DNA from: Pomphorhynchus laevis
Lineage: Eukaryota; Acanthocephala; Palaeacanthocephala; Echinorhynchida; Pomphorhynchidae
NCBI GenBank assembly: GCA_012934845.2
Contig: WNNJ02001646.1
Span: 34,076-98,075 of the forward strand
Direction: 5' to 3'
DNA: 64,000 nt
Of this stretch, positions 8,076 to 62,800 are shown one piece after another (position 1 is the stretch's first letter; each line of letters starts with the position of its first letter). The notes under the pieces are model-generated. The model was not told where the DNA came from and made no database searches. It saw nothing but the letters and a program-made list of their open reading frames with translations. Made by a program: the position numbers and the translations under genes.

Positions 8076-8130
8076 GGTATTCTTGCTTATGCTTACGTAT
8101 CAAAGACCATTCAGAGGCAAGCATGGTAAT
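7981..8130. repeat. Three direct and one inverted copy of a ~25-bp unit
   Basis: The unit CAAAGACCATTCAGAGGCAA (continuing to AGCATGGTA) occurs on the plus strand at about 7992, 8053 and 8101. An inverted partial copy lies at about 8027-8048, so part of the block can fold into a hairpin. It marks the junction between LINE-2 and the minisatellite. It is probably a by-product of 5' truncation and template switching during insertion. Confidence 0.75.
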
Positions 8131-8134
8131 AATG

Positions 8135-9445
8135 TACGCGGCTAAAGGCTAGTTCACGATAAAAGTATGTTGATAAAAGCCGGTGCAATATTACGGTACG
8201 TTGATAAAAGCCAGCTCATAATATAGAATGTAGTTGAAGTCTGGTGCATGATTAAATTACGGGGATTAAGGCTGGTGCATGATTAAAGTACGGGAATAAA
8301 GGCTGGTGCATGATTAAAATACTTGAATAAATGCTGGTGCATGATAAAAGTATGTTGATAAAAGCTAGTGCATGATTACAGTACGTGGATTAATAACGTG
8401 CATGATTGATGTACTTAGATATAGGTCGGTTTACTATTAAAGTACTTGATAAAGGCTGGTGCATGATTTTAGTACGTGGATAAAGGCTGGTACGTGATTA
8501 AAGAAAGTGGATAAAAACCTGATTATGATTAAAGTACGTGGATAAATAACGTGCATGATAGATGTACTTGGATATAGGTCGGTTCATTATTAAAGTAAGT
8601 GATAAAGGCTGCTACACGATGTTAGTATGTGGATAAAGATCGGTACTTTATCGAAATAAGTGCATATAAGTTTGGACATGTTTAAGTACGCGGATAATGG
8701 CCGGTGGATTATTAAAGTACTTGAATTAAATCTGATGCATTATTAAAGCACGTGGATAAGAGCCTGTACATTATTTAGTACGTCGATAAACGTGGGGGAA
8801 TTATTAAAGTACGTGTATAAAGTTGGTGATGTGCATGATTTAAATGTTGGTTTATGACCGTTGCATGATTTAAGTCCGTGGATAATGACGGCACATGATT
8901 AAAATACGTTGATAAAGGTCGTTGCATTCTTAAAGTACGTGCATAAATGCGGTGCATTTTTATGTACGTTGATAAAGGTTGGTATATTATTAAAGTACAA
9001 TGATAAAGGTTGTTGCAGTGTTTAAGTACGTGGTTAAAGACCGGTGTATGATCAAAGTACCTTTATATAAGCTGGTACATGATTTAAGTACGTAGATAAA
9101 GGCTAATGCATTATTAAAGTACGTTGATAAAGGTGCTGTATGATTAAAGTACGTGGATAAAGGCTGGTGCATGATTAAAGTACGTGGATAAAGGCCAGTG
9201 GATTATTAAAGTACGTAGATAAATGACGTGAATGATAAAAGTTCGTGGATAAATGCTGGTGCATGATTAAAGTACGTGGATAAAGGCTGGTGGATTATTA
9301 AAGTACGTAGATAAATGACTTGGATAAAGGCTGGTACATTATTAAAGTACGTGGATAAATTCTGGTCGTGGATAATGGTCGGTGCATGATTAAAGTACGT
9401 AGTATAAAAGATGGTGCATGATTAAAGTTCTTTTGTAAAGGCTGG
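8135..9445. repeat. Degenerate ~31-bp minisatellite, right block
   Basis: Roughly 40 copies of the same unit as at 345-950. The best conserved copies are at about 9140-9300, where TGCATGATTAAAGTACGTGG recurs almost unchanged. Some copies vary in the spacer (GGATTATTAAAG instead of GCATGATTAAAG). There are no genes here. Confidence 0.85.
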
Positions 9446-21049: not shown

Positions 21050-24000
21050 ATCTGACTAACAATTAAATAAAAACAACTACTTGATTACTAAATAAATTTA
21101 TAGTAGTAATTTATATTACCTTTTTATTAAATATTAAATGCCCAAATAAATAATAACATAATAACTTAATACTAAAGAAATAAAAATAATAACTTAATAC
21201 TAAAGAAATTTATAATAATTTACTAATATTATTTATTAATTTGTAATTTTAATTAATTACTACTTTATTATTAAATGTTAAGAACACAAATTAATAAGTA
21301 ATAAAATAAAAACTTAATACTAAAGAAATTTATAATAATTTACTAATATTATTTAGTAATTTGTAATTTTAATAAATTACTACTTTATTAAATATTAAGA
21401 ACACAAATTAATAAGTAATAAAATAATAACTTAATACTGAAGAAATTTATAATAATTTACTAATATTATTTATTAATTTGTAATTTTAATAAATTACTAC
21501 TTTATTAAATATTAAGAACACAAATTAATAAGTAATAAAATAATAACTTAATACTGAAGAAATTTATAATAATTTACTAATATTATTTATTAATTTGTAA
21601 TTTTAATAAATTACTACTTTATTAAATATTAAGAACACAAATTAATAAGTAATAAAATAATAACTTAATACTGAAGAAATTTATAATAATTTACTAATAT
21701 TATTTAGTAATTTGTAATTTTAATAAATTACTACTTTATTATTAAATATTTAGAGCACAAATTAATAAGTAATAAAATCATAACTTAATACTGAAGAAAT
21801 TTATAATAATTTACTAATATTAATTAGTAATTTGTAATTTTAATAAATTACTACTTTATTATTAAATGTTAAGAACACAAATTAATAAGTAATAAAATAA
21901 TAACTTAATACTGAAGAAATTTATAATAATTTACTAATATTAATTAGTAATTTGTAATTTTAATTAATTACTACTTTATTATTAAATGTTAAGAACACAA
22001 ATTAATAAGTAATAAAATAAAAACTTAATACTAAAGAAATTTATAATAATTTACTAATATTATTTAGTAATTTGTAATTTTAATAAATTACTACTTTATT
22101 ATTAAATGTTAAGAACACAAATTAATAAGTAATAAAATAAAAACTTAATACTGAAGAAATTTATAATAATTTACTAATATTAATTAGTAATTTGTAATTT
22201 TAATAAATTACTTCTTTATTATTAAATGTTAAGAACACAAATTAATAAGTAATAAAATAAAAACTTAATACTGAAGAAATTTATAATAATTTACTAATAT
22301 TATTTAGTAATTTGTAATTTTAATAAATTACTACTTTATTATTAAATATTTAGAGCACAAATTAATAAGTAATAAAATCATAACTTAATACTGAAGAAAT
22401 TTATAATAATTTACTAATATTATTTATTAATTTGTAATTTTAATAAATTACTACTTTATTAAATATTAAGAACACAAATTAATAAGTAATAAAATAATAA
22501 CTTAATACTGAAGAAATTTATAATAATTTACTAATATTATTTAGTAATTTGTAATTTTAATAAATTACTACTTTATTATTAAATATTTAGAGCACAAATT
22601 AATAAGTAATAAAATCATAACTTAATACTGAAGAAATTTATAATAATTTACTAATATTAATTAGTAATTTGTAATTTTAATAAATTACTACTTTATTATT
22701 AAATGTTAAGAACACAAATTAATAAGTAATAAAATAATAACTTAATACTGAAGAAATTTATAATAATTTACTAATATTAATTAGTAATTTGTAATTTTAA
22801 TAAATTACTACTTTATTATTAAATGTTAAGAACACAAATTAATAAGTAATAAAATAAAAACTTAATACTGAAGAAATTTATAATAATTTACTAATATTAT
22901 TTAGTAATTTGTAATTTTAATAAATTACTACTTTATTATTAAATGTTAAGAACACAAATTAATAAGTAATAAAATAAAAACTTAATACTGAAGAAATTTA
23001 TAATAATTTACTAATATTATTTATTAATTTGTAATTTTAATAAATTACTACTTTATTAAATATTAAGAACACAAATTAATAAGTAATAAAATAAAAACTT
23101 AATACTGAAGAAATTTATAATAATTTACTAATATTAATTAGTAATTTGTAATTTTAATAAATTACTACTTTATTATTAAATGTTAAGAACACAAATTAAT
23201 AAGTAATAAAATAATAACTTAATACTGAAGAAATTTATAATAATTTACTAATATTAATTAGTAATTTGTAATTTTAATAAATTACTACTTTATTATTAAA
23301 TATTTAGAGCACAAATAAATAAGTAATAAAATCATAACTTAATACTGAAGAAATTTATAATAATTTACTAATATTAATTAGTAATTTGTAATTTTAATAA
23401 ATTACTACTTTATTATTAAATGTTAAGAACACAAATTAATAAGTAATAAAATAATAACTTAATACTGAAGAAATTTATAATAATTTACTAATATTAATTA
23501 GTAATTTGTAATTTTAATAAATTACTACTTTATTATTAAATGTTAAGAACACAAATTAATAAGTAATAAAATAATAACTTAATACTGAAGAAATTTATAA
23601 TAATTTACTAATATTAATTAGTAATTTGTAATTTTAATAAATTACTACTTTATTATTAAATGTTAAGAACACAAATTAATAAGTAATAAAATAAAAACTT
23701 AATACTGAAGAAATTTATAATAATTTACTAATATTATTTAGTAATTTGTAATTTTAATAAATTACTACTTTATTATTAAATGTTAAGAACACAAATTAAT
23801 AAGTAATAAAATAATAACTTAATACTGAAGAAATTTATAATAATTTACTAATATTAATTTAGTAATTTGTAATTTTAATAAATTACTACTTTATTATTAA
23901 ATGTTAAGAACACAAATTAATAAGTAATAAAATAAAAACTTAATACTGAAGAAATTTATAATAATTTACTAATATTAATTAGTAATTTGTAATTTTAATA

Positions 24001-24070
24001 AATTACTACTTTATTATTAAATGTTAAGAACACAAATAAATAAGTAATAAAATAATAAATAATAAATAAA
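21050..24070. repeat. Satellite array, ~25 units of 117-120 bp
   Basis: Each unit contains CTTAATACTGAAGAAATTTA, then a dyad around ACTAATATTAATTAGT, then TTAAGAACACAAATTAATAA. Three unit types recur: 120 bp with AAATGTTAAG, 117 bp with TTTATTAAATATTAAG, and one with ATATTTAGAGCAC followed by AAATCATAAC. The third type is spread at about 21740, 22340, 22580 and 23300, which hints at block duplication. The first two or three units at the left edge are more diverged. It lies 400 bp past the gene A stop codon. Confidence 0.95.
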
Positions 24071-55342: not shown

Positions 55343-55449
55343 ATGGATAATTCACAGGACGACATTGAAAATATATTTGTAACGCTCGATCACAGTTCGT
55401 TAAAATCTGTCTATGAATATTTACCTGACGGAAGCAGTAATTATGTAAA
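55343..55449 (+). CDS. MED17: MED17 exon 1
   Basis: An ATG at 55343 starts 'MDNSQDDIENIFVTLDHSSL', then 'KSVYEYLPDGSSNYV', ending two bases into a Lys codon at a GTACGT donor (55450). The alternative donor GTAAAG five bases earlier breaks the frame with exon 2. The distance from the start to the DG motif matches the known family, which supports this ATG. Confidence 0.55.
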
Positions 55450-58400
55450 GTACGTTTTTATTTTAAATAATATTTTTAATAATATTTTTTAATAAAAATA
55501 AGTATATTGATGTAATTCTCTGCTAATCAATGGATTCAATTAAATTTTTTAGACGTATAAGATGAAAAACAGCACAGTATCCACGAGAGATTCCATTTAT
55601 ATTTCAAAATGTTTATGAATAAAACTAAGAACGAACTTTATCTACTTGTTTTGTTCGCAGATTCATCGCTAGACACGTATTTCGTGTCTAGCGAAATACT
55701 GGTCTAACGCTGGACACGTGTTTTTTATGTGTGGTCACAACTCTAAACATTTGTTTCGTCCTTATGGAACTCGTTAGTAGCGTGAACATTACCCATTTTT
55801 AGAGACACCTTAACACACACTGCCATAACTATATTGATGTATTTATGTGCTTATTAATAAATTCAATTATATTTCTGAGACGTATAAGATGAAAAACAGT
55901 CTAGGATCCACGAGATATTTCATTTATATTTCAAAATGTTTATGATTAAAACTTGTAATGATCTACACCTTGATTTACGTGGATGCTCAGTTATTCAATG
56001 TATTTAAACAAGCGTAGACGAGCTTTGTTCTTATAAGACTACTACGTACAAAGTTCTTGATGTAGTTCTAGAACTACATTAAGTTAGCAGCTGTTTAACT
56101 TTTCCTTTGCGTAAAATATAATTGAATTTATAGATTAGTAGATAACTACATCAATATACTTGTGGTTGTTTGTGTTAAGGTGCCGATGAGTAAAGATCAT
56201 GTTCACGTTTGAGTTCCATAAAGACGAAACGTGTTTAGCGTTGTGTTTGTGTTCTATTTCGTACAGTTTAAATTCGTTGAATGACTGATTTTTTATTTTA
56301 GATTATTTTTTGAAATGCACCAATTTTTTATTTTAGATGTGACCATAGATATTAATTAAATTTGCAATTTTTATAGTTTTGTCTTGCCTATTTGCTAAGC
56401 GTTTTTTAAAATAGGTAACAAAAGGTTTCAAACAGCTCTTTGAGCTTTATTTTGCTTATCAAAACCCAAACAAAATTTCGTATATATTGTCTGCGTGCTT
56501 GACAAGCTTTGAACAACATGCCTGCTGGCGCACGCTTACATGACCACACAAAAAAAACAGAAATCTAAATAATGTGCCGATAATATGGGAACGAAGGAAG
56601 TATTTGAATGTAATATAGGAAGGAGCGCGGCGGACGTCGAAAGAGAGCTGATTCCAAGCGAGGGTGGCGGTGACGAGGAAGGATCGGAGACCGCAGTTGT
56701 TAGAGTAATTGGGAACGTGAAGTAATAGGGAATGACGGGAAGGCAGCGATAGAGAGTTGGGACGAGTGTCGTTTAAGAAATGGGGCTGATGAACGATGGG
56801 GAGTCGACAGCGATTAGACGAAAAGTGACGAGAAGAAGGCGCTCTGTGCATGACAGTGACATACGCACTGCTATGCACAGAGCTTATGCTAAATTCCCTT
56901 CGATGATTCAGATTAAGGGTAGTTCTGTTTTTCGAGCTTTAAACACTGTTTAAGCGTGTGTTAAGGTGCCTATGGATGATTATTGAAGTCACGATACTGA
57001 TGAGCTCCGTTAGAGCGAAACGTGTCTACAGTTGTTGACGTTTGTCGTCACACATAGGATAACTGGTCATACGTAGAGACTTTAAATATTGCGAGAATAA
57101 TTCGATTCTATATCTTGGTCTGATGAAGATATATAGAATGCTGTCTGGTGTTTTGCCTCCTCATGAGGGTGTTCCATGGCCGGTGTAATTTAAGTAAATT
57201 ACACCTTCGCTAATTTAAATAAACATGATTTTTATTCCTTAACTTTTAATTAATTATAAATTTAATTAATTTAGTCTGTTGCTGTTTTTAAAGAGATGCT
57301 TCATATAATGAAAATTTAACGGACAGCCTATCTCAATTGAGTACGCAAGGTCAAGATGGTGATAAAATTGAAAAGAAGCAAAAGATTGCAGCATGTGCAC
57401 TTCGAGATCTAAGATTAAAATTAGAGTAATAGGCAAAATTATAAAGTTTTCATTCCTTTATTTTCGCATAGAGCTGCTGTGCATGAAATTGATAGCGCAA
57501 TCAGCCTACTAACATTGGTGCAGAAATCCGACTACTTTAGGGTTGAAAACGTCGCATTGCAATACCAGCCAATATGTCCTTTACCCTTAAATGAAGTGAG
57601 TTGACATTTAGTATTGAATTCAAATGTTTATTCGTAAATTTAATCGTTTAAAATAGCTTATTATTTTGGAATTACTGTTCAACGAGTTTGTTTATTTTTG
57701 AATAATTTTGAGCTCTGAAACTTTAAACTGTTTATGCTAATTTGATTTAAATATTTAATTATCATCTCGATGATAGTACATCAAAATAGCTGATTGCTAC
57801 AAATTCCCTGATGTTTGCTTATACTTTCTAAAATAATTATCAACTTTTTTATTGCTCTATTTTAACGCAAATACTTCAATTGTAATTACTGCTATCATTT
57901 TATTATCTCAAGCATTTGAAAGTGTCTAAGCATATGCTAATGGGTGAATTCGTAATTTTCAAATTTATAATTATTTAATTTATTTTTTTAACATAAATAT
58001 TTAATTTATATTTATATTTCAAATAAGCATATTCCTGCACAGGTAAAATTCTTGGGTACTCTTACACCAATCCAACCTCTTAAGAGCTACTTAAAAACTA
58101 CTGTACGATGTTGTCGCTTTGTGATATTTTTCTATTTATTTTAGTAAAAATCTTGCGAAAAATAGTCTTAAAGTAAAATTAATGCTTTATTGTGAAATAA
58201 AAAATTAGAAACTTAATTGATTCGACGAAAAACACGTAATAGAATAGAATTATTAAGCAACGAATGTTGTTATTAAGATAAATTCACAATGTAGTCATTA
58301 AATTATTAATAAATAATTTAATAAATAATGAATAAATTCAATATATTTAAATGGTAAGAGTACCGAAGCATTTATCGTAAATAATAAGAAATTTCATTTG

Positions 58401-59841: not shown

Positions 59842-62800
59842 AAATATAAGATTAATTAATTTTCTAATGCATCTTTAATATCTACTAAATCTAGATTTGT
59901 ATAAAGCGTACTAAAATCGTATGTATTTATATTTTGAAAATTTTTTCCTTTTGTCTGTTCTAAAAATTCTTTTGTAGAATTAATACTGAAATAGTGTTTT
60001 ATACCAGTATTAATTTCGATTACCTTGCAATATTTTTAAAGTGTGCTTTAATTACTTTAAGTATTTTATTCATATAGACAGAAAGTGGTTTTAATGTACA
60101 TTTAAACGCACTACATATGAACCTAGGTTTTATTGGATTTTTATGTAATTTTGGATTCCAATATAATATAGGTATAGTTTTATTATCTAATTCAACATTT
60201 ATACCCTTTTTATCCATTATAGAACGATGACTTGTAATAATTGTTTCTAAACTCAACTCACTACGTTCATATGTTGGATTTACATTTAAATCATTTGAAT
60301 TAAGCTCTTTCATTAGTATATCATAATAAAGCATTTTGCATATAAAGGCAAAGTTATTACTATATTTATCAATATTTGTTATATATATAGTTATGCTTTA
60401 ATTTGGTAAGTTCTGTGTACATATCTTTATTAATTTAATCTTTATTTTTATAATTGTTTGTTATTTTCATTTTCTCTCTAATTTCATCTAATAAATAAGT
60501 TTTCCAAATGTTTATCTTTGATGTATTTATCTTTTACTATTAAATAATTTCCCAAAGTAAGCATTCAAGTCATTATATAACGAATTGTAAATTATAGATT
60601 ATGAGTGCACATATATGTGCATATATGTTCATTTATTTTATCAAAATTAAGACTTTTGCAATTGCATTCTGTTTCCATTATGTTTCTAATATTATCGTTA
60701 CATATTGATTTTAATTCTTTATTATAATTACAAATTTTTCGTCCTAATGGTGGTAGGAGTTTATACCTTATTTTAGGAATATATTTACTTAAATCTGACC
60801 CTATTATTTCTTTACATTTAGAATTATTTAAAAGTCCGGCTATATTTATGTTATCTATACATTTATTAATGAAGTTTATGGTTAATGTATATTTTCTATT
60901 GTTATTATTAACATTTATTGTACGATTATAGTATTTTGTATTACAATAACTGTCTATTATACAACTTAGCCTATCATAGTCGTTAATTAATTTTTGATTT
61001 ATTGAACATATGATATGTTTAGAAAAACTTCTTATATTTACAAAGATCTTTTAGCTTATTACCACTAAAAAGTTGTTTTAATATTTCTAATTGTTCATTT
61101 ATATACATATCTTTTTTAATATTTTTAACTATTTTTCCTATTCATTTTATCACCATGACTTCTTGGTTTGCGTTTAACTGGATTATTATAATATAGTTGT
61201 TTATTATGTATTATACTACTTCTGTCAATTCCTTGTACCGCGTCATTCAATCTTAATGGGTACATGGAATTAAGCGTTTTAATCCAAAAATCTTCTCTTT
61301 ATTCTAATAGTTTTTGATTTAATATTGTCTTATTTTCTCCAACAATATGTTCTAAAATAAATAATTTACAGTTTTTAATATCATGTCCTATTAATCTCAT
61401 ATGTTTATGAAATATAGTTTGACTATTATGCTGTATACTATATATGTGTTGCCATTATATATGTTTTTGCGTATTAAAACATGAATGCGTATTTATCAGG
61501 AACGGTTTATCAGTAGCTCAAAAATTATATGCATATCTCTACTTCCTACAGGTGTCGTTCTTACTGAATCGCAAAATGATTTTTTTTAATTTATTATATA
61601 AATTCAATTTTAACAAAATCCGAAAAATACAAACATCATTTATTAGCTGGCTATCGATGGAGAGAATATGCAGACAAGGAACAACACATAAAATTTATAT
61701 AAATATAAATATTTAAAAAATATTTATATTAAAATATAAAAATATTTAATTTAAAATATTTTAAATATTAAGATCTAATCGTTGAACATTGAAATAAAGA
61801 TATGTAGGCAAGGAACGACACATAAGATCTAATTGAGATCTATTAAGATCTTATCGTTGAACATTGAAATAAAGATTAAAAGTCATATCCGATATAATTA
61901 ATTCTTATTTATTTAAAACTGTTTTAAACAATTTTTATGATCTTTGCATCAAAAGCTAAAGTCTTATACAGAGAATCAAATCTTATATTTAAAAAAATAT
62001 TTTGGATTTTAAAGTTTTTAAAATTTGTTTTTTGTTGAAATTTTTACCAAAATCAATGGATAAAATTTTCTTTAAATATATACATACGTAAATACTTAAA
62101 ACTGTTCTTAAATATATCAAAATTCACATAAGATGTTATTTCACAAAGATGAAATTAAAAGATGATGTTAATAAAACTCAATAATCTCGTATTTAAATTC
62201 TCCTTATATAATCAAATTCTCCTTATTTGGTTAATCAATATTTAAGAACTTAATGCAAATACATTGACGCCTCTCAAAGATGCAGGGGCAGTAACTTTAT
62301 GACATGCAAAGCCTTAGCGACAAAGGGTGTGTATTTTCACTGATAAAAGAGCGCTCTAAAATTATCTAAGTTCGCTTTGTACTGAATCCATTTAAAATGC
62401 TCAACTCGACAACCAAATCTATAAACTATTTTGAAATAGCCTTATTGGTATGATTAACCTATGATTTGCAAATATTTATTATTCTAAATATTACTATATT
62501 ACTTCCAAATTAATGTTACTAATGCAAATTTGTATTACTTACGAATTACTTCGTGTGTACCGAATTAAAATTTTGATTTCCCAGTAAAAATATTTTATTG
62601 TATTTTTAAATAAAAATTCAAATCAGTGGAAAATTGCTATTAATTCCATTTTTATAAATTAATTATTCACGTTTTATTAATTATTTACAATTTTATATAA
62701 ATTAATTAATAATTTTTATTAATATATAAATCAATTATGTTCTAAACAGTGATTGAACAGAAGAGAGCGAATTGTTTGCTTTATTTAATGGGATAAAGTG

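Follow-up and report, generated by a model that had tools for sequence, protein, structure and literature searches.

The hammerhead core in intron 1 of a MED17 gene of Pomphorhynchus laevis, found in a 64,000-nucleotide stretch of contig WNNJ02001646.1 (hereafter the window), very probably belongs to a metazoan non-LTR retrozyme, present here in a single, degraded copy; this non-coding retroelement has a type I hammerhead almost devoid of helix III. Because this copy, a member of a family here designated F1, is one worn copy among more than 1,000 self-cutting mobile repeat relatives, the most likely reading of the hammerhead is that of a transposon remnant and not of a switch devoted to MED17. 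The ribozyme described in the initial annotation is not gene-specific but belongs to a repeat that is dispersed and often arranged in tandem. Comparison at the sequence level establishes a high-copy, often tandem family with a covarying fold and a sense insertion in MED17 intron 1.

The genomic setting described in the initial annotation, a hammerhead core on the sense strand of MED17 intron 1, holds, and the joined conceptual exons match human MED17 collinearly. The coding part of exon 1 was read at 55343-55449 (+), with a weak match to the MED17 N-terminus, and exons 2 and 3 at 57294-57425 (+) and 57472-57595 (+), both within the collinear human match; from this reading, intron 1 is inferred to span 55450-57293 (+). 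A 46-bp intron separates exons 2 and 3, and further exon pieces follow. The conceptual protein matched human MED17 residues 75-230 with a whole-sequence E-value of 0.0011 (independent E-value of 0.014 for the best single stretch), and all three PDB sequences matched at E-values up to 10 were MED17. Pfam returned nothing for this protein; a Med17 profile search of the whole genome also returned nothing, and is uninformative because control genomes were silent too.

Intron 1 itself is a nest of repeats, comprising the F1 copy, an inverted F7-like insertion and a LINE piece. The F1 copy (56866-57168, +; similarity starts at 56861 in some comparisons) represents about 303 bp of a unit of about 463 bp, and was delimited by BLASTN against 19 other loci and against two tandem units of locus L009, to which it corresponds as unit positions 1-303 of 463. 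Its first bases form a short fold-back with the sequence just upstream, the nearly complementary arms lying at 56841-56858 and 56866-56883 (+). An older F1'/F7 retrozyme insertion in inverted arrangement occupies approximately 55510-56287, a region (locus L075) in which the F7 core was found at 2 mismatches. It contains two degenerate hammerheads (55721-55800, -; 56182-56265, +), recognised by the family model R1 at 22.6 and 22.4 bits (E about 0.01) as the two new weak matches in the window beyond the F1 copy, whose own score of 109 bits is not independent, since the model was trained on an alignment that contained it. Between the two retrozyme insertions lies a LINE-like fragment (56514-56835) that, by BLASTN, shares about 80-81% identity with three other places in the window.

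Other repeats were also recorded in the window, including an array of a 120-bp AT-rich unit at 21175-24058 (about 24 copies, 96% matches, GC down to 0.115) and two arrays, at 503-945 and 8130-9428, in which a 31-bp GTACGTGGATAAAGG-type unit is repeated in tandem, the larger with about 38 copies. Elsewhere in the genome, three contigs (G000:C2414, C2953 and C3234; loci L088-L090) carry COX1-like stretches interrupted by in-frame stop codons and broken frames, which are perhaps nuclear copies of mitochondrial DNA.

The invariant bases and the other letters listed in the initial annotation are all present: CTGATGA at 56997-57003, GAAA at 57017-57020, and stem II (GCTC/GAGC) within 57004-57016, with arms at 57004-57007 and 57013-57016. 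The core as a whole (56997-57020, +) is backed by its sequence and by compensatory changes in helix II. A 27-base F1 core pattern had 783 + 756 = 1,539 matches with at most 3 mismatches in the 249-Mb assembly to which the window belongs, against 0 for the reversed pattern used as a control, which bears out the earlier judgement that the core lies beyond chance. Many of the listed matches are spaced about 463 bp apart in tandem arrays, and BLASTN of 55400-57700 showed 56861/56866-57168 to be common to 19 other fetched loci at about 80-94% identity. The retrozyme reading is supported by these counts, the spacing and the shared body of about 300 bp, together with covariation, a one-pair helix III over a palindromic loop, low GC content and the lack of a long ORF. 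Across four units (F1, F3 and F7), GC content was 0.36-0.39; no long ORF was seen on inspection of F1 copies, and the ORF list has none inside the unit. Predicted circular folds were paired, with z-scores of -2.6 and -2.4 for F1, -3.2 for F3 and -1.0 for F7 (60 shuffles each). The F1 family shows the following retrozyme features: short tandem repeats with a type I hammerhead, low GC content and neither LTR nor ORF. Its 463-bp unit lies outside the monomer size of 170-400 nt, a published range rather than a strict criterion, within which F7 (296 bp) and F3 (351 bp) fall. The copy in the window is single and partial, with no intact partner unit adjoining.

Alignment of 64 core copies, which collapse to 55 distinct 94-base stretches, revealed a fold common to the family. 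In 37 of the 64 copies, ACGGTA before the core and TACCGT past the helix III loop are exact complements, and the cleavage triplet is GTA in 50, GTC in 10 (including the window) and another in 4. In the window, family helix I corresponds to 56991-56996/57027-57032 (+), and the minimal helix III to A57020-U57025, followed by the family cleavage position C57026 (57020-57026, +). This helix III consists of one A-U pair, present in 54 of 55 copies, that closes a tetraloop (CGCG in most copies). The window copy retains the invariant CUGANGA ... GAAA core and an NUH cleavage site with the triplet GUC; given the helix I complementarity and the triplet after the core, family cleavage would be expected at C57026^U57027. 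Stem I is long and contains an internal loop, and loop II has 5 nt; the outer stem I helices (56969-56974/57053-57058 and 56975-56979/57045-57049, +), paired in 70.9 and 77.4% of cells, fall short of the inner fold where the related family is concerned.

Covariation was assessed in 51 aligned copies (50 distinct rows), of which 29 belong to F1 and 22 to F1'/F7. The inner family fold is paired in 91.6% of cells, and partners slid by 1-3 columns pair in 21-58%. Between F1 and F1'/F7, 50 cells of helices I and II have both partners changed, where shuffles give a mean of 21.7, and helix II carries compensatory changes (CG:27/UA:21 and UA:29/CG:13), switches that may each be a single inherited event. 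Two of the five covariation measures show no excess over shuffles (pairs changed on both sides, 98/500; further pair types, 375/500). These two measures, together with the unit length above the published range and the missing Rfam call, weaken the retrozyme reading.

The covariance scan, which the initial annotation had set as a refutation, detected no hammerhead in the window at the Rfam gathering threshold, the best match being HH9 at 16.4 bits against a threshold of 52. This is formally a refuting outcome, but related loci are equally silent: none of 11 loci that carry hammerheads of several families, in tandem or dispersed, reaches the threshold, so the Rfam models fail to reach these ribozymes. 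The weak matches in the window also meet the hairpin at the 5' end of the F1 copy, and one locus of another family, F4, scores 29.2 bits with Hammerhead_3 (threshold 48.5). Rfam hammerhead models applied at their thresholds therefore miss hammerheads backed by sequence comparison.

F1 and three further families account for more than 5,000 hammerhead core matches. The mostly older F1'/F7 copies have an ACGCTA/TAGCGT helix I, a GTCC/GGAC stem II, and a helix III of AC/GU over a palindromic ACGT loop; their patterns gave two overlapping sets, one of 133 matches with at most 3 mismatches, which includes a few F1-like copies, and one of 130 with at most 2. F3, with a spacing of about 351 bp and 793 matches at up to 3 mismatches, has a regular 4-bp helix III in many copies, and F2, whose core has 2,685 matches with no more than 2 mismatches, forms arrays spaced at about 306 bp. 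A type III layout with GTC occurs in 11 of 14 distinct F2 copies (5/280 shuffles), and a type III layout was also found in 3 of 7 distinct F4 copies (control 3/140) and 3 of 4 distinct F6 copies (control 2/80). The corresponding counts are 0/3 in one further family (control 2/60), 1/40 in F1 (79/800), 0/8 in F3 (10/160) and 0/4 in F7 (3/80). The repeats with this layout, tandem or dispersed, are represented by loci L030, L035 and L037 (F2), L034 (F6), and L031, L033 and L040 (F4). In these repeats, which belong to an apparent animal genome, the GTC site lies 5' of a stem I hairpin; PMC7229834 describes metazoan hammerhead motifs as mostly type I. A ribozyme-core micro-array was also observed at G000:C2085:46304-46496, where the F7 core recurs head to tail every 24 bp at least 6 times.

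An ORF whose motifs we take to be those of a Penelope-like element (PLE) reverse transcriptase has at least 142 matches in the genome, some of them in tandem 2,793 bp apart. It matches RVT_1 with an E-value of 0.00018, which falls below the Pfam cut-off, and has weak homologues, the sole organism-named one coming from a clam. In the window, broken frames at 59859-61298 (-) resemble a PLE with a GIY-YIG-like stretch upstream of the reverse transcriptase, a Naiad-like order; Pfam gave no supporting match for these frames, and a literature search listed no paper on Naiad-type PLEs with hammerheads. At L046:895-1620, inverted F3 retrozyme copies are joined directly to a 5'-truncated Penelope-like ORF. 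The possibility that this junction marks the exact cleavage site was rejected, as the retrozyme part runs 3-4 nt past the site.

Insertion ends were mapped for 31 F1 clusters in 20 loci including the window, and in 28 of these the 3' end lies clear of the edge of the locus. In 13 of these 28 clusters (12 of 27 without the window), the 3' end lies at unit positions 303-325, several 3' ends run into TA repeats, 5' ends are scattered, and both orientations are present in 8 of 20 loci. A pile-up of insertion ends at the cleavage site was rejected, with 5' ends scattering and 3' ends clustering elsewhere. The 3'-end clustering and the inversions agree with the in vitro behaviour of a lizard PLE, which cleaves both strands of AT-rich DNA and initiates within its template (PMC11167929). 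Considering the PLE matches, the F3-PLE fusion, the clustered 3' ends and the two orientations, F1 was probably spread by the abundant Penelope-like elements. It counts against the retrozyme reading that, of 20 PLE loci, only 3 had such a hammerhead within about 1.5 kb, none of them of family F1.

Among the rival explanations, one retains the fold of the initial annotation, in which ACGT at 57020-57023 pairs with ACGT at 57038-57041 as stem III, ACGATA at 56991-56996 pairs with TGTCGT at 57043-57048 as stem I, and T57042 is left at position 17. By this account, three substitutions in the window copy created a 4-bp helix III with a 14-nt loop and a hammerhead that would cleave at T57042 and act in cis on MED17 pre-mRNA, which appears improbable. 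Its GUU triplet is permitted, its 6-bp helix I has a single G-U wobble, and its core is more stable in the window copy (-9.3 against -1.4 kcal/mol for the family core of helices I and II); the order is reversed in a typical copy (-1.7 against -10.1). With outer helices, the family and earlier folds reach -11.5 and -14.4 kcal/mol in the window copy, and -20.2 and -6.8 in a typical one. The unconstrained minimum-energy fold, however, is neither of the two. Over the 51 copies, the earlier fold pairs 72.2% of cells (70.2% in helix I, 51.8% in helix III); it too exceeds shuffles in cells paired, cells changed and covariation score, partly through the shared stem II, but the comparison favours the family fold. 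Within stem III, the third pair forms in 1 of 55 copies and the fourth in 11, and the complete fold (helix III of at least 4 bp, helix I of 6 bp) occurs in 1 of 54 scored copies (1 of 55 was skipped), the window copy itself, and in 171 of 100,000 flank shuffles with the core kept. Against the family fold stands the fact that the earlier helix I alone is possible, wobbles allowed, in 37 of 54 copies and the unbroken family helix I in 31. A subfamily with the earlier fold was also considered and rejected: among the best 100 of 124 matches, sorted by mismatches, no other match to the window's 3' segment has fewer than 3 mismatches. We read the earlier fold as a private accident of the window copy, which might still be active in vitro; the stem II assignment and the letters of all stems stand, and the pairing of helices I and III and the cut at T57042 fit the family worse than the alternative. 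In the preferred retrozyme fold, helix I of the window copy keeps 4 of 6 pairs, with adjacent mismatches at 56993/57030 (G-A) and 56994/57029 (A-C), which explains the low stability of its family core. Owing to these two mismatches and to the lack of an intact neighbouring unit, this copy most likely has little or no cleaving activity and would be a passive rider in the intron; we think it unlikely that any putative cutting of MED17 pre-mRNA by it matters much. The same damage speaks against a domesticated hammerhead regulating MED17 splicing, like those of the amniote RECK and CTCL introns. The sense orientation in intron 1 is compatible with such a role, and PMC6155905 describes cases of this kind, but the many similar copies elsewhere and the repeat-rich intron make it highly improbable.

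Two further rivals concern the repeat itself. Instead of being an independent retrozyme, it could serve as the pseudo-LTR of a Penelope-like element, considering that PLEs are abundant in this genome and, according to PMC7761336, carry weak-helix-III hammerheads in tandem. The core scan of 20 PLE loci with flanks of about 1.5 kb, however, found four hammerheads in three loci, all of families other than F1, and the F1 core in none of the 20, so no PLE carrying the F1 ribozyme was found; moreover, long arrays of complete 463-bp units with neither ORF nor PLE, which would contradict a pseudo-LTR, are already seen, and this origin is accordingly hardly to be expected. Nor is there appreciable likelihood that a hammerhead-like string arose by chance in an unrelated satellite. 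Tandem arrays alone would be compatible with an ordinary satellite, but the helices covary, and the several families in this genome have the core and the pairing in common, not the stem sequence (2,207 matches in the assembly to a generic core pattern not fitting F1, control 0; F2 and F3 are among the families so detected).

For the retrozyme reading, the following route may be proposed, in part after PMC7229834. Tandem F1 units would be transcribed; the helix III loops of neighbouring hammerheads, most of them palindromic, would pair with one another, and the hammerheads would cleave 3' of position 17, acting as dimers where helix III is a single pair, as in axolotl. The resulting monomers of about 463 nt might then be circularised by a tRNA ligase, and a Penelope-like reverse transcriptase might copy the circles at AT-rich nicks; the resulting insertions would be tandem, inverted and truncated to varying degrees.

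Retrozymes, newt-like hammerheads and intronic hammerheads are already described kinds, to which F1 adds a member. Like the metazoan non-LTR retrozymes of Cervera and de la Pena (2020; PMC7229834), F1 consists of short, low-GC tandem repeats without LTR features, carries a type I hammerhead and shares its genome with PLEs; unlike them, its unit exceeds their monomers, and the window copy is broken and single. The axolotl and newt hammerheads HHR_Amex1 and HHR_Amex2 in the same source resemble it in the palindromic tetraloop on helix III, which has one pair in F1, as in HHR_Amex1, and two in F7, but they belong to other genomes and have other stems. PLE hammerheads share the weak helix III, the tandem arrangement and the genome, and F1 differs from them in its long stem I with an internal loop, the lack of an ORF and its absence from the PLE loci. 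Compared to amniote intronic hammerheads (HH9/HH10, RECK, CTCL), with which it shares an intronic location and, in HH9, the nearest Rfam model, the window element is a copy of a high-copy repeat with a damaged helix.

The finding thus shifts from a "ribozyme switch" in a general transcription gene to a ribozyme-bearing transposon remnant. A broader proposal, which we regard as possible yet doubtful, is that one animal genome hosts both newt-like type I retrozymes (F1 and F7, with a palindromic helix III loop) and GUC-cutting type III retrozymes (F2), all spread by a PLE reverse transcriptase that would copy ribozyme-made RNA circles in a rolling manner, starting inside the circle at AT-rich nicks. 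If this were true, the clustered internal 3' ends, frequent inversions and retrozyme-PLE fusion would be genomic footprints of the PLE route. The genome allows PLE-driven retrozyme mobilisation, offered as a hypothesis in PMC7229834, to be tested on several families at once.
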